NCBI RefSeq assembly: GCF_021155765.1
Contig: NC_060116.1
Span: 13,020,001 to 13,084,000 of the forward strand
Direction: 5' to 3'
Source of the DNA: Diprion similis
Lineage: Eukaryota; Arthropoda; Insecta; Hymenoptera; Diprionidae
DNA length: 64,000 nt
In this document: piece by piece, positions 16,783 to 53,400 of the stretch
Numbering within the stretch: the first letter of the stretch is position 1
Layout of the letters: every line of letters starts with the position of its first letter
Position numbers and translations under genes: made by a program
Notes under the pieces: generated by a model
Databases searched by the model: none
The model's input: the letters and a program-made list of their open reading frames with translations, nothing else
Told to the model about the DNA's origin: nothing

Positions 16783-19700
16783 TCATGCTATTACCAATGG
16801 CTCATCATCGGAGAAACCTCGAATCACAGGGCTATCTTCATCATCTGTTAAAACAAGCAATACATATTTCTAAAAATTCTGTTCAACAGCAGGACATCAG
16901 TAATTTCTATAAAAAAAAACTATCTCAAATTGGTAGTTTCAAAATGTATCAATTGTCACAAATCATCTGTGTGATCAAATATCTATAAAACAGAATAAAT
17001 AAGTTTTATAGGATAAATCATAGTTTACCTAGGCCATCCGCAGTGCCAGGAAACGTTGCTTGTCCACGTCTCGTATCGTAATGGCTGTTCGCGAATTGTG
17101 TAAAACTATTCGACAGTCTTCTATGTCGTACCACAAAATATCCCAGGGCTGCTCCCAGAGCAACAACCAGCAAACAGATTGGTATGGCAAACGATAGTAC
17201 GTTTGACGTATATATCATCAATGGTGTTGCAGCTGTTGTAAACACAAAAATCCATGATTTATTACAATTGTCATTATACCTGGTGAACGTATTAGCTCAA
17301 TATTATAACAGGACATAGGGAGTAACGACTATATCATAGCGACGCTACGAATTATGGCTTCTGATATACCTGCATTGGAAGTTAAAACCAACCACATAAA
17401 ACCTCTGCTATGTTAAAAATTGTGAAAACTCAGTAACATATCGATTACTTATATGAAAACTTACATGCAGATTTTGTCACAATATAAGTTTCGCTGAGTT
17501 CGCTCTGATATCCATTTTCAGTGACCAGCCTCACAGCAAAGGCACAGATGTCCATTATCGGACTTTTGTATAAGTACGGGGGTTCTTCAGCATTTAATCT
17601 TAGTGCAGTAGATTCATTGACTACACTTTCACCCTCTGATATTAATATTTCATAATGATACTTCGTTTTGTTAGCAAAACCAGTTGGTAAGTCGTGTTCT
17701 TGCCAGTAAATAAGATAACCGGATTCCTCAGTCCGTACTGTCAACTGATGCGGTGACAATATTGGTGGTGCCAAATAAATAACAGGTTGACTCGGAACTG
17801 CATTTTTAGCATTTGTTACTACCGTCACACTGTACTTTCCACCATACTGCATGGGATGGAATTTGTGATGTAACATAGTTTCGTTTGTAGCCGTCAACGA
17901 TACGGTATGAACTACATTATGCGTCATTTCGGTGATCGTAACCTGCAACGTCCAAGTAAGCTCGAGTAAAGTACTACATAATTAAGCAACATAATATTCA
18001 AGTATTGTTTTCAGTATAATTAGAATACCATGTAAACAATTGGCTCATCTATTCGGGGACAGCTTGAAATCCATCTCACAATTATTTCGTCATTTTCTGA
18101 TGCAACACTGAGATGTTTTGGCGCTGCTCTGATGTTGTAGTGTGTAGACACCTGAAGTGGAGAGCTGAGAGGACCAGCACCGAAATCTCCCAAAACTCCA
18201 ACTGCGAACATGTATACCTCGCAGGCTTCCAAGTTACGAATAGATGTTGTAAGATTGCTTGTAGTAAACCTTGCCTCTGTGAAGAAAAGACAAATATGTT
18301 GAGTTTGTTTCATAAATATTCGGTATGAACCATTTATCATGGATTTTATGTAAATAAATTACTTCTACAGCTATACCACACCGTGAGGATTTGGTAAAGC
18401 GAACCTTTTCTGAGAACTTTGTGACTTATTTAGCACTGTAAGTTTGTCCCATGATTATCATAAGAGACACATTTCACTAAATTTTCATAGTGCATTTATG
18501 CATTATAACAAAATTTAGAGACGGTTGTTATTTAAAATTGCTCACCTTGGATTAAATCTGGCATATTCAGAGCATAATAAATTGCATACTGCCACTTTAT
18601 TTTCCGGGAATCTTTTGGCGGTTCCCAGCTAAGTTTAACTGTTGTTCCTTGATCCTTCATCACTTGTGCTTGTAAATTTGGAACTGTAGGTAACGGAGTG
18701 CCAGTTGTTGTTGCACTGATTGTTACAACTTTTCCAACAAAGGTATCTTTGAATGCATTTACTTCGAATGTGTATTGAACTCCTGGTGCCAAATTCTTTA
18801 CAACTAATGAATTTTGTTGAGTTATTGTTGTGTGCAAGGCAGGATATGGGTCAGGGCCTTTTGGAGTAACATGATATCCAGTGACATTTGGCCTCTTGGC
18901 CCAAGTCAAACTGACGGTTGAATTAGTTGTAGCAAGAACAGACAAGTTTTCTATATCATCAATATTAGCAGCACCGTCAAAGACTATAGTCACAAGATCG
19001 GAAGAATTTGATTCATATTGTTTGTTCTTCGCAATAACCCAAAATGAATACGATTTATCAGTTTCAAATGATGTGTTAATAATCAGTGATGTTTTCTGCT
19101 GTGTATACGATTTTGGAGGGAATGGTGGCGTCATAAATACTTCATAACCAGTTATCGGACCGTTTGGATACAGTGGTGCACGCCAAGATACTTCAATGCG
19201 CGTTCCATTTCTCTGGGTAGCAGTAATATTCCACGGTGCAGATGGAATGCCTATACTCGTAGCGGCAGATATATACACTGCTGGAGGAAAGACTGTAGTT
19301 TGATTCTTGAGCTTCACATAAACGGTTAAATTATATGATGTGTAAGGCTGAAGACTGTTGAACTGATATTCTTCCGTTTCGATCCAACTTGTGGCGTTCG
19401 TCCAAGTAGCGTTTGTTTCAGATTTTGCTATTGAAGGTAGGAATTCAAAGGTCACATTGTTCGGTACCGGGATCATCCAATACAAAATCAAGCTGGATGC
19501 GTTAGTAGATTTGCTATCAACTCCCATTTGAGAGACTTGATAAATCCTAGATTTGTTTTTGTCACAATCACTTTCATCTAAACCATCATAGCAATCTGAC
19601 TTTCCGTCACAAAACCAAGCCTTTGGAATACAGTGTCCCTGATCGCAAGGGAAAAAACCAGAATGGCAGGGAGTGCTTCCTGCTGCAGTGGTTAGATCGC

Positions 19701-22700
19701 GATTGCACCCTATTTCGTCACTACCATCAGGACATTCAAGTACATTATTACAGATATTTGTCAGAGGAATGCATGAGCCATCCACCCGGCACTTAAACTG
19801 GTCATTACGGCAAGCAGTTGTTACTCCCTCACAATGCAATTCATCTTCCCCAGATGGACAGTCTTCGTATCGATCACAAACCCAAGCCTCTTCTATGCAA
19901 GCTCCATTGTAACATTGGAATTGATACATGTGGCATGTTCGTGTCTGGAGTGTAGTGGCTGGTAGTACTGTCGAGACTTCAAAATTTCCGCATCCAATTT
20001 CATCTGAATTATCTCCACAATCGTCGACCCTATCACATTTCCACCAATATGGTACACATTTTTTATTGTTACACATGAACATCCAGTCACTACAAGAATA
20101 GTTTGGAAAGAGTGGATGTGGCAATGGCAGAAGAGTTTGAGTAGAGACTGAACAGTTAACTTCATCCGAGCCATCTGTACAGTCCAGATCTCCATCGCAG
20201 ACCCAAGAATTGTAAATACATCGCTTACTCGATTTACATGCAAATTGCCAAGGTTCACACTGTAGTTTATCGCAAGATGCTTCATCAGTACCATTTTCAC
20301 AATCACTTTCTCCATCACATCTCCATGCCGCTGGAATACACGTTTTGTAACCAGTCGTGTTGCAAAGAAACTGACCAGGTTCACAAGTGGTTGTTTGAGC
20401 AATCGAACAATTTTTTTCATCTGAACCATCGCGACAATCGGCTTCTCCGTCGCAAAACCATCGATGTGAGATACATTGGCCATTCTGACACTTAAATTGT
20501 GCTTCTGTGCAATTTGCGTAACGACAATTTAACTCATCGGTCTTGTCTTTACAGTCATTATCGAAATCGCAAACCCAGTACTTTGGAATACATTTATCTT
20601 CATCGCAGGCAAAGTGATTCGGTTCACAGGATGCACGTTTACAGTGCACTTCGTCAGAATTATCACCGCAGTCGTTATCACCGTCGCATTTCCATAACTC
20701 TGGTATACAAATATTGTTATTGCAAGAGAATTGATTTGCGGAACAAGTACTAGCTATGCGAGGGCATGTTGAATTAGCATAAGGTGATATCCCACCGGGA
20801 CAAGTACAGTTTCCTGAATTCATTTCCATGCCGTCTGGGCATAAGCATACAAATTCATTATTAGGAGCACCGAGACAAATGTGAGAGCACGTACTGTTGA
20901 TACATTTGTTAGTGCCAACCTGTACGCTATGCGCAAATACTTTCAGGTCCATCAGTCCGACTAGCTGTCCGAATACATTAGTTAACCCTGAGCCATGATC
21001 TTTGTCTGCTACAAATATCATCGACTGTTTCCAGTCATCCCAGTACATGTTATCTTTGAAGACAGCCACTGCGAAAGGATGAGCCAATCGTTCGTCATTT
21101 GCAAGTATTTTTTTAAATCTCTGTCCGTCAAAATCGGACGAACCAATATAATCGAGTTTAGCATCTACCCAATATATTCTTTCAGCAATGTGATCGATTG
21201 TTATTCCATTTGGCCATTCAACAGTCTTGTCATTGAACAATCGCTTAACATTTGAACCATCCAAGTTAGCACGGGACACCGAAGCATCTCCTGGTGCCCA
21301 GTCAGTCCAAAACATATAACCATTCATTGGATGAACGGCAATGCCTCTGGGTTTTTTAAGCTTCGTCGAATCTAAAATTGTTCGCCTCATTCTTCCCATA
21401 GTGGAAATATCAACCCTGATTAACTCTATTTTCATTTTCACACCATCAACAAAGTAGAGAACTTTGGAGATCCAGTCGAGTGCCATTCCTTCAATAGAGC
21501 TAAGATCCGTTTCAACTAGAATTTCAGGGTAGCTTGTTCCATCTTTAAGGCACTGTCTTCCAATCGTATCGTTTACAATATCAGCCCAGTACAGACAGTT
21601 GTTTTTTAAATCGAATTCAATTGCAATTACGTTTTTTAAACCGTGTAGGGGTAAAACTTCCAATCGCTGCTCTTTCAGATCGATCCGAGTTATATGATCT
21701 CTTTGAGCGACTAACAAGAATTCAGAAGAAATCTCTTCCATGGGACATGGTATCTGTAACACAATTATTGGCACTAGAGATAATTGTAGGTGGTAGCGTT
21801 AGATTAAAGCATATCAGACTTTTTAACGATAATAATTGTCAACAAGATTACCAATATAACAAATGATTGACAATTAGGGAGATCGATAACAAGTAAAACT
21901 TATCAAGCATGTAAACAATTGCGTTTAATATGAAATAAAAAAGAGAAGAAATCCTGCAATGATGTGATGAATGATAATTGTGTACCTCGTCAGGTTCAAA
22001 ATTTCTGGTCAAGCCTCCTGAGCAGTCGTCATCCTCTATTTTTCGATATCCTTTGGTTCGGTTATAAAATGCACCTGGCTTACAAGATTTGGGTATCTCG
22101 TAAGGATCAAAGCCACTGTGTGAAAATTTGTCGCGAATGCAATGATAGGGAAGCGTGCTGCGAATGAATCCTATATCGCACTGGTAGTCCTTGGCATCGC
22201 ATTGACAAATATCTAGTTTAACAGGTCTGTCGTAATCGGCTCCAGTATAACAATTAGCACGGGCAGCCCTTCGCTGATAAGTCTCTTTGCGACCAAGTAC
22301 ACAGGCCATTGTGGGTTGTTCCGTGCTAGTTGGAGACCAAAACTTGAAATCATCCTTGTTGCAATCTCTATCAAATACTTTCCGTAAATCCACTTTAACA
22401 ATTAACCATTGATGCCGAGAGCTTTCGGAGCCAAACATTGTAAAAACAGTTGTATTTTCTCCAGGCTCAGTCATCAATCCATAAACTCGTAGCATGTGAT
22501 CATTAAACTCATAGGTCTGCCAAGTTTCTCCTTCATCTGTAGAGTATAAAATGTGTCTAGTTTCGCCACGTGACTTGAAGTATTTGACAGCTACTAAAAC
22601 TCCGCCATGATCTCCCATGTTGAAGAAATAATAATCCTTCAGGACTTGTTTCCACGTCAACCCGGCATCCCGAGATACAAAAACACCTGGATGGCCCTTC

Positions 22701-25700
22701 AGACTTTTTCCAATCACTCCTGTAGCAATTATAATGCCAGGTGCCGATTTGGAACTCATTATAGATACAGAACGAGTTGCTGGATAAAGCTGACTAAACT
22801 TCTGGCTGAGATGTAAGGAACAATCGTTGTGACATGGGATCGTAAATCCATCATTGTCAACAGTGGGTGCATTAATTGGATTCCACGTTGCACCATGATC
22901 GTAAGTTATCAAAGACGCGAGATGCTCAGGTCCAATTGCTCCAGCTTTCGGAGTTTCTTTTACTTGGGATGCGATATAAATACCTCGCAGCCCTTCTACC
23001 TTGTACAAGTCAGTAAAGGCTTCATCTGAGACATCGCTGTAAAAAAATTGAATAATATTAATTAATTACTTGGTAAATGTTTGAACAATGAAACTTACTA
23101 TACATACATATTTTACAGTATAATTCAATAGAAACTTGAGTGAATCTTGATATAAGGCGAATACTGGAAAAAAGATTAGTTTGTTTACTTGAGCCAGCTG
23201 TCCTTCCAGGTGCTATTCGGGAAGAAAGTTAGAATTCTTTCCAGGGATAACCTAAACACAATGCTGTCGTGATCTACTATCTCCGAAACATAGAGATTGA
23301 CTATATACTCAGTATGAGATACTGCTACTAAAATACGATTGTTGGAAACATCCACAATATGATAGTCTTTTCGATCCAGTTCAGAAAGGAATCGAGCCCT
23401 TACAAACCGCTGATTCTTGCATGAAATAAATAAGTCCAAATTGTTCTGAAACAATAATATTTTTCCCATTTAATGAAAAAATTTATTGGTACCCATTCAA
23501 GATACTTCCAGCTTTATGTCAAAGAACTACAATAATTTTTAAGCAATTGAAGATGTACTTACATCATCACTTGTAGCTCGGCTTTTAGTCGTTGCAAACA
23601 TGCAATCACCTTTGATTTGAAAGTCTTGAATACCACCCATTACAATTTCAAAGTTTCGTTCAGCTTGGAATAGTTTTTTACTTTCTAAAACTGTGTTAAC
23701 ACCAAATGGTTCGTGTCTTTCAACAAACAATGTCTTTGGTTGCTTAGATGACCAGAAAAACGCTTTGACGTACTCTTGGATAACGACCCATGTTTTTCCA
23801 AAATCTCTTGTAAGCCATAACTGCAATTAATAAAGCTTCACATAATAGTCCACTAATGAAATGATTGAAAAATTTATTGCAAATATATATAGATTTAAAT
23901 TAACAATTACGTATTTATTTTCGTGGCTTATACTGATTACCTATGCTGAGAAACAAATAAATAAGTTTTCAGACAGATATGCTTTATCATGTAAAGCTTA
24001 TTATCTTATCATGATTAGATGTGAAAGTATAATACATTACCTTCCGCTCTGGGTCAATTTTGTCCAATGCTAGAAATGTAATTGGATCATCCTCATGAAA
24101 CGATATGTCGCTTGGATGAAATGGTAAATTTTGTCTGGTTATATCTTGTCCATTATTCCATGTAGTGAATATCAATTGATTGGAACTATCTGCAAATACG
24201 CACTAAAAGAAAAAAATAGGAGAATAATTATCATTGAAATGAGGCATTGTTTAAGTGATTCGACAAGCAGTGTTTGTTATTGCGACCCTATTTGTCAAGT
24301 ATCGGACATAAAAAAAGAAACTCTTGATTATCATAGAAGATTAAATGCAGATAAGGTAACATTCAAATTGTGCGAAACAAAGGATGCTTGCAGCTCAGAA
24401 ATATTGGTATAATCAAGAAGCGTGTCACTCGATGAGTCAAGTGAAGTTGAAAAGGAGGAGAGTGAATTTCATTCTCGGTCTTACAGAGAAAATATTCAAT
24501 ACACATCGGGTGAAAAACGGCAGGAAATACCTCGAAATATAATATACACATCTTCCTAAAATAATAAATACTGATAAAAATAATAAAAAACTAATAAAAA
24601 AATTGTCGTCTTCTAATTTATCATCTGTTGCAAATTTCATTTTCATTATGTTTTATGTAATACTTATCTGGTCAAATCGTTAAACTGGTCACAGAAATAC
24701 AAATTGTCAATGTAGGGGATTAACTTACATGAGTGTTGAATTTCGGATGGTTGTAAAATTTGTCCAGGGTGGCATATCCAACACTTGGCTCTTTGGAATC
24801 GGAAACACGGAATTTATCAGTTTTGTTTTCGAAGGTTTCTCCATAATCGTAGCTGATATAGACTGCACTAGGATTGGTTTTTATTGGCAAGCGGACCAAT
24901 GGAGTACTATCTCTTGCTAGGCAGATTATCACATTTGAACCTTCACCAACCCAATGTACCATCAGTTGTTGATGAGAATCATTCAGCCAATTGAGCTGAA
25001 ACAGAAATTTAATCTTGAATTTATAAACCTATATCACATGAATGGCAATAGTGAAAGTTTTTTTTCATCATTCTAAAAACAGATTGATCCCAAGTATCTA
25101 GAAATTAGAGTTATTTTGGTTAATCGATGGAAGTGAAAGTAAAATTTTCACATGAATGGATCTACCACATTTGGTTATTATTAATTGCTAAGGTGATCCG
25201 ACTACAGCAGTAGTAACCAAATTTATGCCTAATGACATGTAAACCAGTTTTTATAACAAACATTCGATGCGCAGGTTCATCAATATGCTGACCAATTTAA
25301 GAAAAAAAAAAAATGGTAATTACATAAACATAGTTACCGTCATTTTGCGTCTATAGCTGGAGAAGGCAAAAATATAGTAATGGCTTATGAGTGATATATA
25401 AACGGTGCCATCAATTTACTAGCAACATAATTATTAGTTTAGGCTATAGGAGGTGATAAATTTTGAGAAATCGTAGCTTTGGAATTTCCTATCCAAAGCT
25501 TCGTAATGGCTTGCAAGATCGGCATGTATCGGACCTACGGAATGAATATAACGAAAAGCTGATCCAGCAATAAGTAAAACAATGCATACAGCGACATTGT
25601 ATTTTAGTGGACTGTTGCGCAAACAAATTTCTTGGCATCGTTAGAAATGAAATATACATGCCCTGGATAACCTTCATTTACATTTGTTACGTGTTGCGAA

Positions 25701-35451: not shown

Positions 35452-38400
35452 TTACTTTTTCGCTTTTCTAAAATATGACAAATGAAATGTGATCTGCGGG
35501 CTACTTTCTAACTTTTATTAAGCTAGTGATACACCAAAGTAACCAAGTAAAACTGGACTATTTAAACTTAGACTTTGTAAGCGATGCTCTAAGGATGCGT
35601 TGATGTTAAATATTTATTATTTTATAACTTATATAAGTTATAACTGATTGCTATACATCTACCTCACTTAATAACAGAAATATGATGATCGATGAGAATC
35701 ACGGCATAAAAATTTGTCAAAAAACGGTTTGTTCGCACTTAAGAATACAACCTATTGATAAACAGCATCAAGCGATTTGTTAACTAATGGTTTAGTGAAA
35801 TTGCTCCTTATTCTCAACTATGTACAATGGTAGAATATTTTATTCTAATTGGCACAGTATAAAGGTTATCACGTGTGAACCTCTAGGAGTATAAGAAAAA
35901 GAATCAGTACCTTGCGAATTAATATAGCGTTACTTACTTTTTCTTGAGTGTGAAGAAACTACGCCGCTTGGTTTCAGCTTGCGTCGGTGCTGGCAGAGTA
36001 TGTGCTCTAGATGTACTCGCGCCAGATACACCCTGTGCAGCTTGATTTAACACAGATACCCACTCAAGCATTTCTGCGTCATCCTTAGCTTGGAATAGGA
36101 AGTCTGCTCCGCTTTGAGACCTGAGGATTTTGTATTTAGTTTTGATTTATCAATTTTTGTGTTACATATTTTCAGAATTTTCTCTGTACATTATCGGAAT
36201 ATACTTCATTCCGCTAATGACAAAACACTGTACATTGAACAAGCAATTTCCACTCACTTGACTCGGAAGACATGTTTCTTCTTGGTGTATTCACTGGCGA
36301 CTACTACAGAGGCACCTCTGAGATCTAGAGCTGGTTCACCTTTGTATGGCTGGTCGGCAGCAGCTTTGTAGGATTTTTGATCTTTGTAAGCTACCAAATT
36401 TTGCCCGCGTATAACCATATATAGTTTGTCCCATGATCGATTCGAGGCTTTTTTTGTTGTGCTTTCCCATTCGTGCTTGCGCGTCAACGTTCCTTCAAAT
36501 TCGTCATCGCCAGGACTTCGTTGTTCTGTGGATGAAAAAGATTGGAATATTATTCTATATCTTTGTTATTGTCATTATTACATATTAGTATTCTAAACTA
36601 AACAGGAATGTTTCAGCTCGTCGTACTTTTGTCCAGGAATCATCAGTTTGCATATTGAAGTCCTGAAAGGTGATCAGCATAATGAAATACTTCAGATTAG
36701 ATAATTTGATTCATCAGTCGTTATTTGCTAGAATATTTCCTGTAATTTCAATGGTGAATTAAATATACACATAATGAATTGTTAGCTTATGTCTTCAGAA
36801 CTATTCATAAATATATAAATGTTGAGCATAATGATGGCTACGAATTCCTCCCTCCGTCATCCTGCACAATCTATCAGCTTATGTGGACATACCCGAAAGA
36901 GTATGGTGGAACTGGAGTGATTATTATTGTGTTGATTATTATTATGATTATTTTTATTAAGCATGCTTGAATTATGGGATTAAATTATCTAAATTCGAAG
37001 TGTTCTCTCGATATGTAGCTAATCACAGATGCGACACCTGAAATCGATATGAAAACAAATTAGTTTATTTATACTTTAAAACTTGTTCGTTAATAAGCAT
37101 TGGACTGTAGAAAAAGTTGAATTTATATGTAAACATATTTGCACTGATTTGTTATCAGCACCCTTGATCACTATAAAAAAAAATGACAAAAAGCATGATT
37201 AGTAGAGTAAATAAAATTGATAAAAAAATTTTTTTCATGAACGTTTGTAAAAGAAGTTATGCCAATGCAGTACAAACAATGTGACGATAAGCGAGCTGGA
37301 TAACTTGTGCATGGTCAATTCTCAGTGAGGTGATGATAAATCTGTACGAATGCTTCTCATACAGAGGCCAGGACGACAATCAAGTATGATCCCTTGTTGT
37401 TGATTCTTCTCGTAAACACCGCCCAACTTGCTTTTCTAAATATGATAAGTTTTCACCTTACCAATGAAAAAAAAAAATCGCACAATCGCTTACCAGTATA
37501 ACTGTGATCATCATCGCTCACACCACTTCGATCCAGGCTAGGTGACTTAGTTGATTTTTTCCAACGGAAACTTCTAAACGGTGATTTACTACGGCTTCTT
37601 TCCTTGCGCCGCAATGTACCGGATTCAGAACCACTGCCACCCTTTGGAGCTTCATTTAGCACACAATTAAATTTATTTTCATTTATTACTTACTGTTACT
37701 TTATTTTTTGAGTGCCAAAATGTGTAATGAGTTGTCTGTGTTTACCAGAGTTCCGGGAACTAGTGTTTTGTTGGTTCGTTTCAAAATATTCATCAAACAT
37801 AAACTTATCATGCAACGTGCTCGTGCAAAAAGACTGCTACTACAGTACATTATTACTACAATGCACAAGATTACATTTAAAACTAAGGAAAATGATTCAT
37901 ACAAGTAATATAACTAATTGAAATTATTAAAGTGTTTCGACCTACTCTAGATTATTTAAATGTGCATGTCAAATTTTGAGTAGTTATGAATTATTTGATA
38001 ATACTGACTTGCACAGCAAGTTTTTCACCACATGAAAACCAGTACCCTCAACATATCATTCGATTCCATGTAACAACTTTCAAGTGGTGAAGGTAATGTG
38101 TAATTACAACAATGGTTCTGTTTACAAAACTTGAAACTGTAAGAGATTGAGATATGAGAAAAGCATATCTAGATATAAAATTAGTTTCACAGTATGTTAA
38201 ATTGGAAACTTGTTTTTATCAAAAACAACGCAAACAAAAACTGCAAAAACTTGAATGCAGTTGCAAAACACTCCACTACTTAAATCTGCGTTGTTTTGTT
38301 TGCCCAACTTTTGACACAAATCAAAACCTTTTCGGATATTTTCAGACAGTAGAAAAGTAAAAAATAAAATGACTAAATATTGAAGTAATTACCGGCTAAA

Positions 38401-41400
38401 TGATATCATGTCGAAACTACTAGCAACCGAAAATAATTACCGAAATTCTAACGAATCCGACGATGAAAGGCAATATTACCACATGCAGAAACAATTTGTT
38501 CCAGCATTACTGAAGCCAGCTCCCTATTGGAAGGGAATGGCGATAGTCAATGCAGAGTTCAAAGAAATCTCACTTACGGATTACAGAGGAAAATACCTAG
38601 TTTTTTTCTTTTATCCATATGATTTTACATTCATCTGCCCTACAGAGATCATTCAATTCAGCGATCGTATTGATGAGTTTCGAAACATTGGTATGTGTCA
38701 CTGATTCCTGGCAGTTTTAGTGTTGTATTTTTAACTTTCATAAATAGTTTATTAGTATCAGGAAACTCAATATTAAATTCTTTAAAGATTGCGAAGTGGT
38801 TGCGGCTTCTACAGATTCTCAGTTTGTGCATTTTGCATGGATAACTACACCTAGAAAACAAGGTGGATTAGGTGAAATGAAGATCCCAGTATTAGCTGAC
38901 AAGAGTTTGCAGATTGCCAAAGATTACGGCATATTGAATGAGAAAACTGGAGTTCCATTGAGAGGATTATTCATTATTGACGATAAACAGAACCTTCGTC
39001 AAATTACTATCAATGATTTGCCAGTGACGCGTTCAGTTGATGAAACTTTGAGACTGATAGAAGCATATCAATTTACAGATAAATATGGTGACATGTGTCC
39101 GGCTGGTTGGAAACCCAAACAGCAACATAAAAATCTTGAACCCAATAAATGTAAAGAATTTTTCAATGCAACATGAACTTTAAAAAGTCCGAAAAAAAAA
39201 AAAAAAATAATGAATTCGAACAAGTATGAAAATAATAATTTATATACAACATCAAATAATAAATGTTTGAATGAAAGTAATCAAATGTCTATGTATATCC
39301 TCTCCGTTAGTTTACAGGACAAAAAAAAAAAATTTGATGACAATATTTTTATGTGAAGATGACAATTTCTCAACATGACAAAAAAAAAATGTTGCAGTTT
39401 TGCAATGAATTACATTTGTGAAAAGTATCTTATCATCACGCTTATTCTACTTCAATTTGTTTGGTAAGGATAAGTATCCGATATTGTGAAGACGAAATAT
39501 TTGACCCTTGATCGAGTATTCTAACACACTTACTTGTCGGTGTTGTTGGATATGACGACTGGGACTTTGGAGATGTTGGAGAAATCGGCGGTGTTGAAAC
39601 GTCTGGTGTTGACAGTCGTGCAGGCTTCTGAACATGCACTACACCACACCAATTACATCATGCTTTTTAAAAATCAATCGAGGCTACATAATATAATATG
39701 TATATAAGTAGGTACAGCGAGTTCCACGTGTATTGAAGAAATACGTGTGGGTATTATAACGTGAATTGTGATTTGGATATCACAGTATAAAGTGAGAAAT
39801 TTTATTTTAGTAAAACAACATAACAATCATGCATTTGCTACTATTTTGCAGACAAGATTATGAGATTATTTCAGAAATTGTTTTCTGTGCATGAAACTGA
39901 TCACATCTATAGTAATCCTATTTGAACGAATAGAGCAGGAATTGTTGACAGCTATGGATAGATTTGCAACCGAAAAATACTGTACTTTGGAAAAGCTTTG
40001 AATATGTAGATCTTCGATACAACAAAAATTCAACGATTATAGGATTATAGGTCAACAACTCTAACAAATAGGTACTGATGAACCAATGAATGTGACTAGT
40101 CGTCATGATTGTGAGCCCTTCAGTGTCGTACACCAACAAACATAAATATATGAAATAATGAGAAACAGGCACATTTAGCAATGACTATGTTGAAGTCAAT
40201 AAAATGAAATTATGAAATGGAGAACTTTGCCAGATTTCCGAATTAATACGTAGAATATTCTGTATGAGGAAGAAGTTCATTGGGGAAGGTCATTGAAGTG
40301 ACAAACTGAAACTTAGTCGTATGGCAGTTTTGCTACATTTCGTAACTGTAAAAAATCGTGCATTCTGTTATTCTGTGACTGTCTGAATTCATTGATTTGT
40401 GATAACACAAATAGCAGTAATTTTTTTGATAAGCTGCACTTACCTAATATTTAGGAAAGCTTAAAAGGAAACAATTAGTATATGCAATTAGCCACAAATG
40501 TTATCATGTAGAGAACCAATGTACCATAAAAATACTTTCCAATAGATGAACAGGTAGACAGATTACGATACGCAACGTACCTAAAGGATTCGAATAGTAA
40601 TCGTACTATATATAAAATTTTCACATTATCACAAGACGGGTGGACAGGACCCACAAGGGCAACAGATAATTCCAAATTAGCTGCCACCATTTTGTTCACT
40701 TTTGCAGTTTCGATATGTGCTTCATATGAATTACCTTTCAATAAAATACATATAAAGATACTCACATTATCGCACAATTACAAAAACAAAAATTTCTAAT
40801 AACAATTTAAAAATACATGAGGCACATGATTGTAGAAACAATTCAAATATATTCTTACAGAAACCATCTCCAATTATAAGACAGGTATCGCCTAGTATTA
40901 CGTGTACATCTACTTAAAACACTACATGATGAAATTAGGCAGCCCAATCTGTAAAAATGCTCCTCCACCTGCTAAAAAACATGTTAACAAAAGCAAATGA
41001 AATGGAGAAAATTGAATGAATATTAATATTGGTGCCATGTTGCTGCAATTGTGCTGAAAGGCTTGAAAGATGTTGTTCAAATGTGTTCTAATATGCGGTT
41101 AATAAATATTCAACTTGATGTGATTAGTTGTAAATTAGGATACATAGATCATACTTTTCCATCACCTTCATGAGTTACAGCTTTTGATGCAGCAATACCC
41201 AAATTATACAATTGAATTAATCCACTTCACACAGATGTGAACCACAGAGCGTTCAACACAATCACTAAATATTACATGAATATATAATTTGAGTATCCTT
41301 CATCCTTGTTATGTGATATCATCTCTCTTTGCCATTGCCGTATTTATTACAAAATCTACTGATATTTACTTTTATTTTTGGTGCAAAAAACCTTTAGAAA

Positions 41401-44400
41401 TAATTAATGTAATAGTTTCTGGGAATATTGTGTATTGATAGATAACAAATTTTAAGCAATTGGCCATGAGAGATAATAATTGACATTAATAAAAGTAACT
41501 GTTTTCAATTTTCTGAACCCAACACTCACCTTCCTTGGGTTTTTCTTGGGTTTGTGGCGATCTAGTTGAAGGCTTGCGTAGTGCCACTGTGGTTCGTGCA
41601 TTCCGTGCAGCATTTGGGTGTGTTGGAAAATATATAGCGGATGAGAGGAGGTCACGGAATGGGATTGAAAAAGGTTGGGTAATAGGAAGGCAAAAATAAA
41701 CGTGCTGTTAGCAATTTCATGCCCAAACGTAAAATGTCAACACTAAGGCTCAGAGGTAGTACGATTTACTGATACAGCTGAGTCAGACTTGTACAATTGA
41801 GATATTAAGCCTCTGAGATTCAGTGCTGAGGAAAACTATTGCTTAAATTGCAAAATCAAGATTGCGAGGAGAAATAATAATAATTTGGCTACAGTAATCA
41901 GAGTATTAGTCAATACTATGTACTTTCAAAAATAATACTAATTCTCCTTACAATCTTGTCATCAAATGCATCCATTAATATTACCACTTCATCTGGTACG
42001 AATTCCATTTGAAAACTCGTCATTTCAATACTTGATATACACAAAATCGTTGCTTGAAATCTTCATCATGCCTATCATGGACTCAAAACTTTTCGATGAA
42101 TAATATTTATGAACGCATTGTGATTTTCCTGATTAGTCTTGTAAATTTCATAATAACAATTCACTGTGCTACATTATTCAGAATTTTTAATATTTCTGAG
42201 CGTGTAGCACTGTCTGTGAGATTACTGCTTGTTTGTCATAGTCGACAGTACTGTAATATATGTATGTTTATAAAGATTTTGAACTAACCGTGACCATCCT
42301 CTTCACCAGCTTGTTCCCCGTTTTGATTACCTTCGCCATCAACTCTGTATTACAAAAAATCATCAAGTTAATGTGATAATTACTACACGAACTTAATAAC
42401 AAATAACAAATACTGATATTGAAACAATATCCATTTTTAATCCAGTTTTAATAAATCCGTGCTACTATAAAAGATTGGTTTACCTGTCACTGGGTGGCTC
42501 GTCAGGACTGGTGACAGGTGTCGCTTTGGCTAACTTTGCAGCCTCTGCTGCGGCAGCTTCTTCCTGTTCACGCCTTTCTTCTTCTTCTCTTTCTTGTTCT
42601 CGTCGCTTAAGTTCTCTTAGCTCAAACTAAAGCATAGGATGATCTTATTGTTATTTTGAACAGACAAAGAGGTTACAGATTACAAAACAAAAATAGACTA
42701 CTGAAAATGTTCTACATCACAGTACATTCAATGATAGGATACATACTATATGCATAAATGCTATACTTCTGCGTTACTACTGCATTTTGAAGCTATCAAA
42801 TGAGAATCCAGAAACTTAATATGTATTAAGGATGTCAACAAAAGTACACAACGGATAATAATAGTTGCATTACAGTGATATGATCAATCCTTTATAACAT
42901 GCATTTGGGGATCAAAGGGATTTATGGAGTACATTGTAAAAACGCATGCACTACTCACTTGAATAATATTGTTTTCCGGGGTTACATTATCTAAAGACAA
43001 GGAGCGGTCTTGGGAAGGGAATGATTTTTCTGAATTCGAGATAGAGGATAAGTTTGGATCATCTTTGTTCAAATTAGAACTTTTTTTGAACTTGTCTTTA
43101 GGACCCAAAAGTGATTTACTACGTTCACGATCACTCGATGTCTCGTTCGTAGATGATTTAGAGGATTTCGGTAGCATTGCGCGTGATTTTAATGACATAT
43201 AATCGCAATAATTGAAATTTACCTGCATTAAATGATTAAAACTACGAATCGTGTTATCTTCATTACAGAAACAACGCTCTGCTAAAATAAGCACCTCACT
43301 TGGATCAAGGTCCGCTTTTATTAAATCATCCGTGAGTGCCCCAATTTCAAGACGTAACTTCCTTATCTTATTTATTGACTTTTCAACGTCTAAGCTATGT
43401 CTATCCTCACTTGATAACTCATCGTCTAAAGGAATCCCAGTCGGTACTTTTCCCGATTTTTTTTCTCTAAGATATGCTTCCAGACCATACTCATTCATTT
43501 TTGTATCTGTGGGTTCGTCTAGTTGAGTTTTTGGCTCGACAATCACATCTTTGTGATTCAACTCAGTACCCACAGGGTTGTGAATCACTACAGAATGAGT
43601 GACATCAATACTGGTCGAACTCTTCTTTTTCTTTACAGGAACACAAGCTGTGTCAATAATTTCACTGTTTTCACTGTCTAAAGAAGAGTCTGATACACAA
43701 TACTTCCTCGGATGTAATACAGTCAAATCCTCAATTTCAGGAGTTGAATGTAACCTAAAGAATTCTTGTTTGTGAGCACTGATTGTACTGATTCTTCTCA
43801 AGGTTTTTCTTTCGTTGGAAGTAACAATCTCATCATCGAATACAGGCACGTCTGTGAATTCTGCATAAGGCGATACAGGTTGACTACCACAAGAACCTTG
43901 AGAACTTCTACTGGCTGAATTCCAACTGGAACTCCATAGAAAGGATTTAGAGGGTTCTGTCTTATCAGTTCTACGAATTATAGCATTAGGATAAATGATT
44001 TTTGTTCCTGTAGATGTCAACTCACGTCTTTGCTTCGTAACAAACCTGATAAATCTGTCTGAGGGTAAAATAATATCACGCGCAATCTCACCTTGGGATT
44101 TGAGGTACATTTTGGGTTGTGTTATAGGGATTTTAGATGATGGAGGATATTCCGGAGTGAAGATTAATTTGTGACTGAATTCCAACACCGGTGGGTACAG
44201 GCCGCATTCTCTATCAGGACACTCAGGCTACGATAGACACGAACAGACAGGGTGTTGTAAAGATGCATGCAACACAGATAGAAATGAGAAATGAAAAATT
44301 ACACCGGTCGACACGATTTTTGGGTCTGACTTATGAATGTCAAATTTTGGTTTCTTCTACATTACTAATAAAGGGAAAAATAATTTTTTCTATCAAAGTT

Positions 44401-47400
44401 TGCTTTTGTAGAAACCAGAGAAATTTTTTCAATTTTAACTGAATTTTTCATAATTTTATTTTAAATTACAACCAAAAAAACTTTTACCAAACATAGGAGT
44501 GTTTTTGATTCTACAATAATGATTAGTAATAGCATACAATTGAAAAATAATAAAAATCAAGTTCAAAAATTGATATTTTTAGTAACTTTCTTATGTTTGT
44601 ATGGACTTTCTCGTATTAAAACCCCAAATGTAATCCCCCATCATATTTTGGTATGAGAATGGAGATCAATTGGGGTTAATTCTGATGGTTTTCCCGTATA
44701 ATAATAACAGTTATTGAGTATTCAAGTTACAAAAATATAAATTTGTTCGAAACTTTTTTAGATTTGAATTTTAGATATAATTTTAAATTAACATAGGCAA
44801 AGTGAGGTAAAAGTAGGCTTAATAAGCTTCACAATGCTTTAAATTTGTTGCCAAAGAAAATTTTTTGCTTCATACTTTAATAAATTCACCGCAAATAAAA
44901 CAGAATGAATCAACATCTTGTTTACACTGTCTTGACGTCATTTTCGAACTCAGAAAATTTTGTAACTCACAAGGACAGTTGTTACAGCTTTGATAGACAA
45001 GTAAACACTCACTACTGTGCCTTACGCGAGTAATATGCAGTTTGGTACCGTTTTGATCGAAGTACTACCACCTGCTGCTCGTAAAATCAATAAAAATCTT
45101 TAAAACTTACTTATCGACGTAAAACAGACAAAAGCAAACTTTAAAAGCTGAGAATGGATATTCTGGTATTTTGCGATGCGCAGCATCAGAATTTATGCAT
45201 TAAAACAGAAACCCAAAAAAAAAAAACAGTTTTTTTGTCGACCTGTGTTATAACAGTTAGGTAGTGCGAAATAAAGACATTATGATACAGAGACATGCAG
45301 TTCAATTATTAACACTCAAAATGAATTTCACCAATCACCATTACATAGAGCAAAATATGATTATAATATTAATTTATGAAAGCAAAAATGATCTACAGAA
45401 ACACAATTTAAACTAAAACACAAGGTATGTAATCAAATTTTTTCATTGCGATGAAAAATCAAACTTTTCCAAATGAACTAGGATTATAGCTATTAGATAA
45501 GGATCAAAAATCACCTCTACCATTTTATATATGAAATACTACGTAAATAATTTACTTTACTGCTCTGTCTTTACTTACCGTTGTAAGTCGTTGTAGAGCA
45601 CTAAATCTTTCTTCTTGTGCTGCAGCTGATTTTTCGAAAGCTTCATGTTTCTTGATAAGATTTTCTACGTCGTCGATTGTATGCTATAAACAAAGCGATA
45701 TAAAATTAGAAAAGAAACAAATATTAGTCAAAATTGTCACACAACTTGATCGGTAGTTCTAATTGATTGAGATTCAATATTTTTTAATTCCATAATATCC
45801 AGAGTGTTTTATATGTAAAATCAGAAGCCATTATACAACTGACGGAGGTGTAGGCTAAATTTATCGTTTCCAACGCTCTATCAGTTTTTCCAAATTATCA
45901 TATGATAATTAAACATCATTTGGACTGCACTTTGCTTAGTTATTTCTCACTCAGGTAAAGAATACTTGGACGAAGCTGTACTTGTATATGAAATAATACA
46001 TGGAATTTGAATAGTGCCATCTGAAAAGTTTGCTTACTCCAAGTTCCTGGCTCATGAGATATGGCTCCTGAGCAATAAGCCAAGCTTCCGCTACAGCTGC
46101 ATCTCTGGCGAATTGGTAAACTTCAAGAACTGAAAAGACATTGACATGTAACTTGTTTTAGGAAATGCATACAGAAATAAAGTTTTTAAACTACCGGATA
46201 GAAAGTCAATATTTTCATATCATTAACATTTTTTTTCCGCACGTATAGTTACATTTGAAACTTACTTAGCTGTAGATTCTCCCATCTTTCTTCCCAGCGG
46301 TGCAGTAACGCATTTCTGTGATCAGTCAATGCTAGTAGTTTTTCCTTAATTTGGACACTAGCGTAATGGTTCCTTGCCAATAGATCTTTTCCGAGGTCAA
46401 GACAAGCAGTAAGATTGTCTTCCCTAGTGTCGATTTCAGCTTTCAAACTTTGATGATTATTCATCAGTAGCTCTACACCCGATACGTCACGAGGCTTCTC
46501 TGAAGTGTTCATTTGCCTGACAACATCATCCATCCAAATCAGTAAGGTTCTAACCATGTTGAAGAATCTGAACAAATCACCGGTGTCTTCTAATTTTGCC
46601 TTACGTCCTTCGCACAAAGACTGTAAATTATTCCAAGCTGCTACTACTTCGGCCTCTCTATTTGTGATTTCTCTAGCCTTATCCCCTGCATAGCTAGCTT
46701 GAAGTTTAGACGATTCATCCTGGATTTGTGTCACCTGTGACTGTAAGGTAAACAAATCTTGAATAAAGTTGCCATGTTTCCGTTGAAGTGCTGAAACAGA
46801 GCCAGCGTCGCGGCCCAATTCGTCTGACATTGCATTTTGTTTCTCCAAGATCCTTCCAAGAACATCTTTGCAGTCATGGAAAAATTTATGTAGCTCACGG
46901 CTAGCTGCTAACATTTGAGTTCGTGTTTCGATGAGCTCTAGCAAATCTTGCCAGACTTCGTTCAGGCCATCCTTCCATTCTGCAATTGTAGCTGCATCCG
47001 AATGTCCTGTTGCAATCAAAGAATCTGCAATTCCGTTTACAGCCGCGACTCTTTCCGATCCGATTGTCTCCGTGTCACGAGCAAATTCCTTGAATCTTTC
47101 CCAAAGCAAAGTAACGTGATCGTAATCTTGACCTAACTCATGACTGCCTGCAACTAATTCTCGCTCAGCTATCCATTGCTCCAAATCGTCAACTTCTCGG
47201 TTCAGCATGAACAGCTGAAGGGCTTCGTCCAACTTGGCACGGCGTTCACCAGCCAAATCTTTTAGCCCTGCGTATAGCTTGTCAACTTGGGATTGTTTGA
47301 CTGCAATTTGATCACTCAATGCATGCTGATCGTTTATCAATTGCCTTGCTGTTTCACCTAGTTGACGGATTGTATCGGCATAATCTTCGACAGCATGTTC

Positions 47401-50400
47401 TAAAGACTCGTGTTTTTTCATGAGATTTTGCGCAGAAATCTCGTCTTTGCCACGATCTTCAACCATCATGTATAATTCCTGTTCGCTCATCCACGATTCA
47501 GCTTCCGTAGCATCGAAGAAATATTGTTGCGCCTTTTCGTTTTGTAACAAATGCTTATTTCTGTTGTCAACCGCATCTTTCAGTTCGCGCCATTTATCCG
47601 AAAGATCGGAGATACGTTGAGTGAATTCAGCACTATCTTCGTGTCCCTCGTCAATCAATTTCTGACCATTTTTACATACAGAATTGATTCTTGGTTCGTG
47701 GTTTTCGATTTCAGTACGGAGAGATTGATTCTTTTTCTTTAACATATGCACGTTGAAGAGGGAATTACCATATTCCGAACTGGTAGCTTGTGGCATTTTT
47801 TCTGCAATCCATAATTTTTCATCCTCAACGTCACGCCTGAATTGGTATGCTTCTTTTTTCTTCTCCAACTGACGTTGTCGATCGGTAAGCGGTGCCTTAA
47901 GCTGTTCAAATCTTTGCGCAACTTTCTCTTTCTTGCATTTGATTTCTTCCATCTTTTCATCTGGAACTGTTCTCTGTAAATGTTCAGCCTGTTTATCGAG
48001 TTCTGTGACTTGGCGAGCCTTCACAGCCATTTGAGTTTCTATCATTTGCTGTTTCTGCATCAAAATATTGACAGAGGCAAGATCAGATCCAGTGTCTGTA
48101 CTTTCAATCTGTTTCTCCAATTCATTCATCCATGAGTCGATATCGTCGCAAGTCTGATGTATGAGGACTTCACGATTAGCATCGAATAGCCTCTCTCCTT
48201 TATCTTTTGTTGTTGTTTCGAGCTCTTCAAATTGGTCACATAATTCTTCAACTTTCGGCTTTATGATCTCAGCCAATTCAGGCTTTAATTGAATCAATTC
48301 ATCAGCAGCCTGTTGCAGTTGCTGCAAACGATCTTTATTGCTCGCAATTTCTGCTTCAAACGCTTGGTGCCTCGTCCATTTGCTATGAACCGTTTTTGCA
48401 CTGCGATAAGTTTCATCTTGAGCAGTGATGTGTTTTTCCTGTACCCATTCAACGAGCTCCTCTCTATCCTGTAAGAACATCTGCAACTGAAGTTGATCCT
48501 TCAATCTGTCCATCACTTGATTAGCTCTTTCGTGATTGGCGTTTCTTCGTTCGTTTATTGCATCTGCCTTCTTCTTGACTTTGTCGGCCGCAAAGTGGCC
48601 TTCCTCAACTAATCTGCCGGCAAATTGGACAACTGAATTGATCTTATCATCATTGGCTTCCATTGTAGTCATAAATGCTTCGTGGCGTTTTATCATATTT
48701 TCTGCTTGTTCAAAGTTCGTCGGAGTCTCATCCTTGGTAAGGATATGTTCTTGCTGAGACAACAAAACTTCAGCTTGGCGAGCATCACGGTCAAAGACTT
48801 GCAAGTTCAACGAATTCGATAACAGATTTTGACGGTTCGCCCACATTTGGTGGAGTTCTTCCCAGCCCATTTTCAGGGCATTCAATCTTTCTCTCAAGAA
48901 CATGTACTGTGTATCTCCATCTCCAGCCTCACTTGTTAGCCTCTCACCGTAGTCCATCATCTTCTGGTAATCGTCCGTGTAGTTGTCAATCTCTTCCTTA
49001 ATATTCTGATGCTGGGTTAACAGTTTCTCAGCATCTGCAAGGCTTGTAGGTGTATCTTCGCTGGCAACGTCTGTTTGGGTCTTGGTAAGCCAAGTCTGGA
49101 AATGATCGAGGTCCCGCAAGAATCTATGTAAATCTCCAGCTTCTTCGAGCTTAGCATCACGTTCTTTAAGCATTTGAGTTAATTGCTCCCACATGGTATG
49201 AATTTGGGTGATTCGTTCACGAATGACTGCAGCCTCATCAGGATGTTCCTGCTCAATTGATTGTGCCTCTTTTTCAAGTGCATCCAATTTCGCCTGTATG
49301 GCTGCCAAGTCTCGCTCCATACCGCTAAGCCGACGCTGAAGTGTCATCACACCAGTCAAGTCCATTTCTAAGCTATCAGTTTGCTGTAAGATGCGTTTCT
49401 TGTCTTCGATCCAAGATACCGTCTCACGACATTCGATATGGAAGGTTTGTACTCCATGTGCAGAGTTGAGTGCTTCGCGTTTGCCTTCAGCCTTCTCTCT
49501 TAGTTCGGCCCACTTTTGATTCAGTTCATTCTGACGTGCAACAATCTGTTCTGAGTTTGGATGTTCAACGTGTAACAGTTGTCTAGCCAATTGATTTACT
49601 ACAGCAACACGAGAAGCATTGGCATTCATTTCCTTCTCAAAGCCATCGTAACGGTGTTTCATTATCTCAACATCTTCAATGTCCTTGGCAGGAACCATTG
49701 TTTCCAACATTCTGTTCTTTTCTCCGATCCATTGTTCAACTCCATCCGATTCACTGAACAGTTTGTACAGAGACAAGGCATCTAATAATCTTTGCTTGCG
49801 CAATTTAGCCAATTCCAAAAGCTCTTTGTATCTCGAATCAATTGAGGCGAGTCTTTCTAATACCTTTGGAGATTTAGAATCATGTTCTCCAAGTTGTGAT
49901 GCTTGTTGATGCAGCTGCTCGATGGTTGTAGCATAATTTTTCAGTTCGTCTGTGACATCTTTATGTTTTTTCAGTAAAGATTGAACGTTTGCTTCATCGC
50001 GACCGACATCCTCAGATGATACCAACCGCAGAGTATCTAGCATCCAAATGTCGATATCGTCGGCATCAGCAAATAATTGATGATAATCAACAGCTTCCTC
50101 TAGCCGCTTGCGTCTGAATGCTGCCAAGTCTAATAAGTGATTCCACATTCCTAATATTTCCTGTAATCTTTCCTTAATGCGATCAGAACCGAAATGATGT
50201 TGACTAATCAATTCATCACCCACTGCAGCAACTGACATCAATTGTGGTTCGTGAGATTGGATTTCGTTCTCCAAGGCCTTGTGTTTGGATAAGAGTAAAT
50301 TAATGGTGGTTAGATCGTGACCAATATCACCCGTAGAAACAATCTGCTCTTTCTCCTTGATCCAGTTCTCTTCGTCAGCCATATCCCAATAGAATTGCCA

Positions 50401-53400
50401 AAGATTACGAGATTCTTCAAGCCGTGCTCGACGCTCAACAGCCAGGCGTACCAATTCAGCGTACGCATCTTCAAGCTGTTGCACTCGTTCAATAATAATC
50501 GTTGGATCGCAAGGACGATAATCTTCTCCTTGTTCTAAGAACCTTTGGCTTTGCTGAACGACAGCCTTAACTCTCTCACCTAAGACATTGATGTCTGCCT
50601 CAACAAGTGAATGCTTTTGAAGAAGATCCTCAACACCCATCAAATGTTTACCATAATCATCGGTCAACAATCGCATCTTAATTTCTTCCATACTGTCTAA
50701 GATGTACAACATTTCTTGGAAGTTCTGTTGTAATTGAAGCGAACATTCCAACCGTACTCTTCGTGCTTTCAGTAGTTCCAGAAGGTAGTTCCACAACCTC
50801 AGAACATTGTCCTTTCGGGCATTGATCCTGTCTATATCGTGGTAGTTTTCTGCCTCTAGCTCTTGAGATACAGCCATAACTGCTTGTACACGTTCTTCGT
50901 AAGCGAATATATCAGTTTCGATAGCTTCATGTTTCTTAGCCGCAGCTTCTACGGCTGCTAAATCGAAGCCAAAATTGTCTTGAGATACAAGTCGTTGATT
51001 TTCAGATAGCCAAGTTTCTCTCATGCTGGCTTTTCGGTTAAATCTTGCAGCCAACTGCTCTAATTTTTCTTGACGTATCAATTCTTCTCTGAGCGCCAAT
51101 TCACGCTCGTGTTCAGCTTTTTCTAATCTTTCCCAGGCCTTGTTGATATCCGAAATCATTTTGCCTTCCTTGGGTGTGTAGGGTTTCTGATTGTTGGCAC
51201 GCATTTTCGACTGTAGTGTAAACAGTAGTACCTCCAAATTACCCTTTTCCACAAATTTAGGTGGTTTTTCTACTGTACGGTAGTTGGAAAACTGTGAAAG
51301 TTGAGTCTGAACGCCCACAAGAGAATTGGCAAATCGGCGATCACCCAAAGCTTCAATTGTGGCTTCGATCCATCTAAGTAAATCACTTGTCAAACTTTCA
51401 TATTCATGAATCATTCTGTCGTTCTCCATGGCAATTCCGACAACTTTACCGATTCGCTTACCTTGAACGGTTTCTTGCTTCATTTTCGAGAAATAGTGAT
51501 AGTAGGTCACAACATAAGTTATGATAGACTTTTCGTCAGGATGATCAACAAAAATATCCTCTGCGTCTAACAATTTTGTTAGACCTAATTTATCCTCCGC
51601 GACATTGAAAGCATTGTTCAAATTGTAGATTGCATTCGATTTCGATAGCTTGTCAAAGTGGATCAAATCTGGACGATGTTTGTGTATTATGGCATTGAAC
51701 GCAAGACCATCTCGCCAAGATGTTGTGAAGTTCCTAACATTTACATTGTGATATCCAGCAGTCTTCATTTGACACCACAAAAGTAAAGCGTCCTTGGCTG
51801 ACTTAGTTTCCTGGTTATCAGTTTCTTCTATGGTGATGTCTTGAATTTGGAAACGTAGAATGATTGTCCAAATCAATCCCAAGCTCAATCTTGGATTTCC
51901 ATCAACGATATCGTGTGATCCCATGTTTTCAAGATGGACTCTTTGCTCTCGCAAAAATTGTAACGCCTTGTCTACATTCTCCAAACAATGGATACGCATT
52001 TTTCCTTTGGTAGGACGTGGTAAACGTTCGCCCGACAATATTTCCAGCAGCTTTATAAGCATTTTTCCATCGCGAAGATCGACGTAGAGATCTCCGATAC
52101 GACAAGAACATCGTACTAGATGGGAATTCACCCATTTTTGAAATGTTTTCTTCTGCACCGATTCACGTTCACCTGGGAAATAAAAATGTGAAATAATATT
52201 TTTATTTGCATTATTGAAAAGTGAACATCATTAATTGATTGCTTTTATTAGAAAGTTGAATGTACAGTGAAAAAATGTATTCGATACATTATATATATAG
52301 TTGAGGATAAAATTTGGGTATGTGGGTAGAGCAGCAATTTTAAAATACACTTCTCACCTCTGAGATCAAAAACAACTTTATCATAGTATTCTTCTAAGGG
52401 TTCGTCAAGAGAAATTTGTATTGAGTCATCCATTACAAATTGTCAAAAAATCACTCAGATTTCAAATCCGTAGTATAATTTCACAATATATCAGTATCTG
52501 TCTATTAAAGTGTTGGACCTATTTTCGATCGGATGCTGATAATATTTTGCTATTATGTTGAAAAAAAAATTTAATTTGTCAAAATTGGAGGATTTGCATT
52601 GTACAAAACGATTTATGTACATTCGCATTCTTCTTAGGGTTGCACATGTTAGATAAGACGGGTCGAAACCATTACCTATGAGTCAGGGAAGAGCAAATAT
52701 TGTGTGCAGATGGATTTGGGAAAGATAAAGATAATATTTCAAAGAAGAAAATTATTTGAAACCCACGGTAATATTTGCTATAGAACATACAATAAACAGG
52801 AAAACTAACTCCACCTCGAGTCGACGCCCAGTGTGATAAGATGCAAAGACTTTGATAAGAGAAGTAAGCCGAACAAATTGCTGAACATATTGCCAAAAAA
52901 ATTTCGTATTACATTGAAATTCTACTTGAAATTTACTACTTGAGAAATTTTATTCCAAAGCTGTGAGAAAAAACTCATGATCAAATATAGAGTGAATTGC
53001 CAGAAATTGCTAATATTAATATAGGGGATATTCGCCTTTCCAACTATGCTAAACATGTGTTAATGTAGTCTTTTCAAAATTTAACACAGCAGACGAATGC
53101 AAATACTGCCGTACGTAGAATTGTATGTTATAAAATTAAAAATTGTGTTAAAATGATTGAGACTGCATCAGGCTCATTCAAGCAAAACGATTTTCCTTTT
53201 ATGCACCACTGTTAAAAACTGAATTGTAATATACTTTATAAAACTTTTCACCCACAATTTTTCATATATTATTATGAACGATTTCAAATAAAAACTATCT
53301 GAAACTTGTATGAAGAAACATATTTAATAACAAGTCTAATTAATAAATAATTAAATTTCACTGGTTTTTATTACTCTGTACGTAAATACGCCTTCTAGCA

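Follow-up and report, generated by a model that had tools for sequence, protein, structure and literature searches.

A candidate 1.27-kb in-frame cassette exon between the last spectrin repeat and the PH-domain linker of Diprion similis beta-spectrin

Beta-spectrins carry a variable region termed the specific domain (SD) between spectrin repeat 17 and the PH domain, according to the available portions of two papers (PMC4967436, PMC5226651). In the same portions of the first, the incomplete last beta repeat is said to pair with alpha-spectrin, and the SD of mammalian betaIV-spectrin is described as proline-rich (PMC4967436). The accessible text of a third paper reports that a CaMKII-phosphorylated serine in the betaIV SD/C-terminal region controls stability (PMC8294584). 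Large exons of membrane-skeleton proteins may also be used in part: as far as the available excerpt goes, the 270-kDa form of ankyrin-G takes in just the first part of its giant exon (PMC5422562). Among insect proteins, the silkworm BmBeta_spc is given as a chain of 2575 amino acids with 17 repeats, a PH domain and a CH domain in the part of the source available to us (PMC12193018, Table 1).

We analyzed a window of 64,000 nucleotides of Diprion similis (contig NC_060116.1, positions 13,020,001 to 13,084,000), whose minus strand carries a beta-spectrin gene with its N-terminal exon near 53.8 kb. An earlier note on this DNA had proposed that a 1.27-kb cassette exon interrupts the gene between the last spectrin repeat and the PH linker. 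Coordinates below are positions within the window (Table 1).

The beta-spectrin gene and its candidate linker exon

The two exons that flank the candidate are separated by a 2952-nt gap (between 45579 and 42626). The upstream exon ends ACAACG/gtaagt in phase 0, and the downstream exon starts after ...tatgctttag/TTTGAG. If these exons are joined directly, the product is predicted to be an ordinary beta-spectrin of approximately 2298 residues with the reading frame kept. The resulting junction, RLTT/FELRELK, is gap-free in alignment with the erythrocyte beta-spectrin chain 3lbx (PTTLELKERQ), which indicates that skipping yields a normal protein. The PH part of the skipped product aligns to 1dro, its best PH match, which we take to be the Drosophila PH structure. 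When the part with the CH domain and repeats was searched against the genome, it hit its own locus at 100% and another 25 places at 27-69%; the latter are probably betaH, alpha-actinin and relatives. Because matches elsewhere reach only 27-69%, this is apparently the only conventional beta gene in the genome.

Table 1. Positions of the beta-spectrin exons, candidate exons and the neighboring repeat element in the window
Feature	Position	Strand	Remarks
Large exon with CH domain and spectrin repeats	46266..52173	-	1992-codon frame
Exon toward the end of the last repeat	46129-46038	-	
Upstream exon, end of the last (partial) spectrin repeat	45579..45683	-	...SALQRLTT
Repeat element	44301..45248	-	~950 bp; in upstream intron, not in exon
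Cassette exon candidate (main finding)	42959..44227	-	423 in-frame codons, phase 0 at both ends
Possible shorter form of the candidate exon	43223..44227	-	335 codons; internal phase-0 donor CAG/gtaaat
Downstream exon, start of PH linker	42484..42626	-	FELREL...
Second linker exon	42289..42344	-	weak donor
Small cassette candidate	41530..41586	-	57 nt; phase 1; poor acceptor score
Small cassette candidate	39534..39638	-	105 nt; phase 1; poor acceptor score
Small cassette candidate	37494..37649	-	156 nt; phase 1; basic and Ser-rich; poor acceptor score
Possible alternative terminal exon without PH domain	36985..37037	-	acceptor, 17 codons and stop; AATAAA at 36958
PH-domain exon 1	36258..36525	-	
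PH-domain exon 2 and C-terminus	35937..36120	-	

The candidate exon (44227-42959) comprises 1269 nt, or 423 stop-free codons, and lies exactly between the end of the last repeat and the first exon of the PH linker. Its acceptor reads ...tctatcgtag/CCTGAG and its donor ATTCAA/gtgagtag. The coordinates, open frame, splice sites, phase-0 ends and junction position given in the earlier note are all borne out by the sequence. To the 5' side, the nearest in-frame stop is the TAG of the candidate's own acceptor; to the 3' side, the frame stays open for 72 nt beyond the donor, as far as a TGA at 42886-42884. The other two forward frames of the segment hold 27 and 50 stops. By sequence, the segment appears to be inserted at an old junction, directly after the incomplete repeat.

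Splice sites between 45570 and 42600 were ranked with an approximate weight table. By this table the terminal donor is third among 189 GT sites, and the acceptor, a fair one, is 12th among 161 AG sites. The first PH exon of the gene shares its donor 9-mer, CAAGTGAGT, with the candidate's terminal donor. An internal donor at 43223 scores 5.64 with the same table, slightly above the terminal donor (5.37), and its use would give a shorter form of the exon (Table 1). The top-scoring of the 189 donors, at 44092, was rejected: an exon ending there would finish in phase 1, which is incompatible with the next exon.

Two usable, in-phase splice sites would equally serve a constitutive exon, one always included in Diprion similis beta-spectrin, and the listed length of the silkworm protein (2575 residues) exceeds that of the skipped form here. 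However, the flanking exons join into conserved canonical sequence, and very large exons are often skipped. We consider constant inclusion distinctly unlikely. An alternative 3' end, formed if the transcript runs on past the donor as far as the TGA at 42884, was also rejected, as there is no AATAAA or ATTAAA as far as 42627 and no codon signal in the read-through. Three poly(A)-like hexamers within the segment itself, at 43376, 43322 and 43193, count against the exon reading.

Further downstream, three small linker cassette candidates are each in frame, from phase 1 to phase 1. A beta-spectrin intron also contains a peroxiredoxin gene on the opposite strand (38748-39176, plus a preceding stretch; Pfam AhpC-TSA and 1-cysPrx_C). 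Elsewhere in the window, long frames on the minus strand at 18532-23065 resemble, by eye, a sortilin-related receptor with LDL-receptor repeats and FN3.

Coding signal and rival explanations for the open frame

The open frame is longer than chance would provide, because the longest ORF in any of 2000 dinucleotide shuffles of the segment (six frames) was 194 codons, with a median of 84. Shuffling the whole 2952-nt intron 1000 times gave a longest ORF of 182 codons. The segment is one of five open frames of at least 400 codons in the whole window.

Codon usage was scored against a coding set of five long frames of the window, spectrin included, and a non-coding set of six stretches assumed to be non-coding. 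With stops ignored, the segment scores 0.088 in frame, compared to a maximum of 0.033 among 504 presumed non-coding values, a number that multiplies overlapping windows by six frames. Removing spectrin from the training set leaves the in-frame score at 0.086. In a second set-up, 0 of 416 presumed non-coding windows matched the segment. Its score lies below those of four of the five long frames used for training and above that of one. When the segment is divided into thirds, the first, second and last are reached by 8, 0 and 36 of 576 null windows, respectively, so the last third is weakly supported. Overall, the segment looks like coding sequence under light constraint.

The two ends of the segment were compared with stop-free null windows. 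The 39 codons before the first methionine lean toward coding, with 76 of 733 windows scoring as high (approximately the upper tenth). The last 39 codons do not stand out (106 of 733). Past the donor, the next 24 codons look non-coding (930 of 1750). This pattern weakly fits an exon bounded by two splice sites, the pieces being short and of little power.

These measurements bear on a different possibility, that the segment belongs to a separate small gene nested on the same strand, with a single exon of approximately 408 codons running from Met40 of the segment to the TGA at 42884. The frame does continue beyond the donor to a stop, the candidate acceptor is not outstanding, and an unrelated peroxiredoxin gene already lies within a later intron, on the opposite strand, so nesting occurs in this gene. 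Against an independent gene, the codon signal is absent after the donor, the codons before the first methionine are coding-like, the stretch from the stop to the next exon contains neither AATAAA nor ATTAAA, and the donor is in phase with that exon. Each of these points is weak singly; the fading of the codon signal at the donor weakly favors an exon over an independent gene. We regard a nested gene as unlikely.

Met40 is also the starting point for another reading, in which the segment is the first coding exon of a short isoform made from an internal promoter and containing only the insert, the linker and the PH domain. This methionine is in frame, the donor leads in phase to the linker, and N-terminally truncated beta-spectrins such as betaIV Sigma6 are described in the available part of PMC5226651. 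However, such an isoform would have no need of a good acceptor, the promoter is unsupported, and the bacterial-type scan is uninformative. An isoform of this kind seems very unlikely.

The upstream intron contains a repeat element with inverted ends (ACACAGGTCGACA ... TGTCGACCGGTGT). At least 57 further places in the genome match it, on the scoring of 40 of 211 candidates, and some of these places belong to a single copy. These are 75-96% identical, except for one 27-base piece at 100%. The element has no ORF of 120 codons. It stops approximately 73 nt before the candidate exon, and the longest matches stop at 44293. An exonised transposon was therefore rejected as the source of the segment: the element ends before the exon, a protein search of the genome shows no second copy of the segment, and all seven of the element copies examined are without the exon sequence.

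In the 269-Mb genome, a protein search finds only the segment itself and no second copy. Viral and prokaryote contigs likewise gave no relatives, as expected there. This lack of relatives in the collections searched, together with the weak codon signal of the last third, might suit an exon that no longer functions, whether a past or a seldom-used one, and has stayed open through recent decay or low constraint. Judging from the shuffles, however, 423 stop-free codons at 36-40% GC would soon close without selection, and we find a nonfunctional exon highly improbable.

Taken together, the segment is probably a real, in-frame and optional (alternatively spliced) coding exon of conventional beta-spectrin. 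We infer its inclusion in transcripts and its optional use from the DNA. No description of such an exon was found among the listed titles and abstract openings of open-licence papers, and the exon may already be present in some automatic annotation.

The predicted insert and its possible role

The encoded insert has no match in Pfam, NCBIfam or PDB sequences, in agreement with the earlier description of it as having no known domain. That description also called it Ser-rich, and serine does account for 13.7% of its residues, with serine and threonine together at 20.1% and proline at 6.9%. An Rfam search of the region gave nothing useful.

AlphaFold2, run on the single sequence, gave a mean pLDDT of 36.4 with no residue above 70. 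Helices were predicted, with low confidence, at residues 248-254, 281-304, 309-319 and 326-350, and nothing elsewhere. By charge and hydropathy, the insert taken whole lies marginally on the folded side, and only approximately its last 100 residues fall clearly on the disordered side. However, the control, folded spectrin repeats, lands on the disordered side, so this measure says little. Order-promoting residues make up 28.4% of the insert and 28.7% of spectrin, and composition does not separate the two. Our guess, consistent with the fold and composition results, is that the insert could be a tether with a small helical module.

Linear motifs in the segment are not more numerous than in shuffled sequence. 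The counts are 2 compared to 0.9 by shuffling for [ST]x[IL]P (23% of shuffles as high), 8 compared to 4.9 for Rxx[ST] (8% as high), 3 compared to 1.9 for PxxP (28% as high), 1 compared to 0.7 for R[RK]x[ST], 4 compared to 5.8 for [ST]P and 11 compared to 12.5 for [ST]xx[DE].

Inclusion of the exon would add 423 residues to beta-spectrin, giving approximately 2721; if the three small cassettes are also used, the total could reach approximately 2827. The insert would sit directly between the partial repeat, the one that in spectrins joins alpha-spectrin at the tetramer midpoint, and the PH linker. It would most likely form a long tether, largely unstructured, in which a single short stretch at approximately residues 248-350 is helical. 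Such a tether would extend the reach of the PH domain and could bring sites for phosphorylation or docking to the tetramer midpoint, in line with proposals for the betaIV SD and for giant-exon ankyrins.

A broader idea is possible but speculative. Some insects may produce a giant beta-spectrin from one gene through a regulated 1.27-kb exon, with a shorter form made from the donor at 43223, and thereby place a tether and a small helical docking module in the middle of the tetramer. Splicing would then fill the role that in vertebrates falls to a distinct betaIV gene, perhaps in neurons and alongside giant ankyrins. A single gene has to serve axons, muscle and epithelia. If the idea is true, a hub of linker exons with a very large midpoint module would be a concrete origin of diversity that can be tested, and the exon would offer a clean target for deletion in an insect.

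Comparison with known systems

Mammalian beta-spectrin isoforms without a PH domain exist, and the candidate terminal exon at 37037-36985 would similarly drop this domain. That terminal exon candidate is, however, separate from the 423-codon segment.

The silkworm protein is an insect beta-spectrin that, at 2575 amino acids, is longer than the skipped form here (approximately 2298). The available part of its source gives it by total length (PMC12193018). The silkworm length suggests that other insects may have longer forms too, and the long form may not be unique to this species.

The earlier note likened the segment to the giant exons of ankyrins, which is fair as an analogy and gains from the internal in-frame donor at 43223. 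As in ankyrin-G and ankyrin-B, a large in-frame exon, here a candidate optional one, occurs in a membrane-skeleton protein; its internal in-frame donor could give a shorter form, as for 270-kDa ankyrin-G to judge from the available portion of PMC5422562. The ankyrin type is Ser/Thr-rich with an unstructured product; for the insert, serine and threonine come to 20.1%, pLDDT from one sequence is low, and composition measures do not separate it from spectrin repeats, so that likeness in these traits is uncertain. The ankyrin exons differ in belonging to another protein and in size, at 7.8 kb compared to 1.27 kb here.

A further comparison is with the betaIV SD. The linker at this place had been called short and variable in the earlier note; variable holds, and short is too narrow, since the SD sits there according to the available parts of PMC4967436 and PMC5226651. 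Position, from repeat 17 to the PH domain, and variability are shared with the betaIV SD as the accessible portions of three papers describe it (PMC4967436, PMC5226651, PMC8294584). In those portions the betaIV SD is proline-rich and belongs to a separate gene, whereas the candidate is a phase-0 cassette with 13.7% serine and 6.9% proline, and its PxxP count (3 compared to 1.9) is likewise not that of a proline-rich region. Thus, the segment matches the betaIV SD by position, not by proline content. Our best reading is that it represents an alternatively spliced giant exon in the linker, which enlarges the variable specific domain found at this place.
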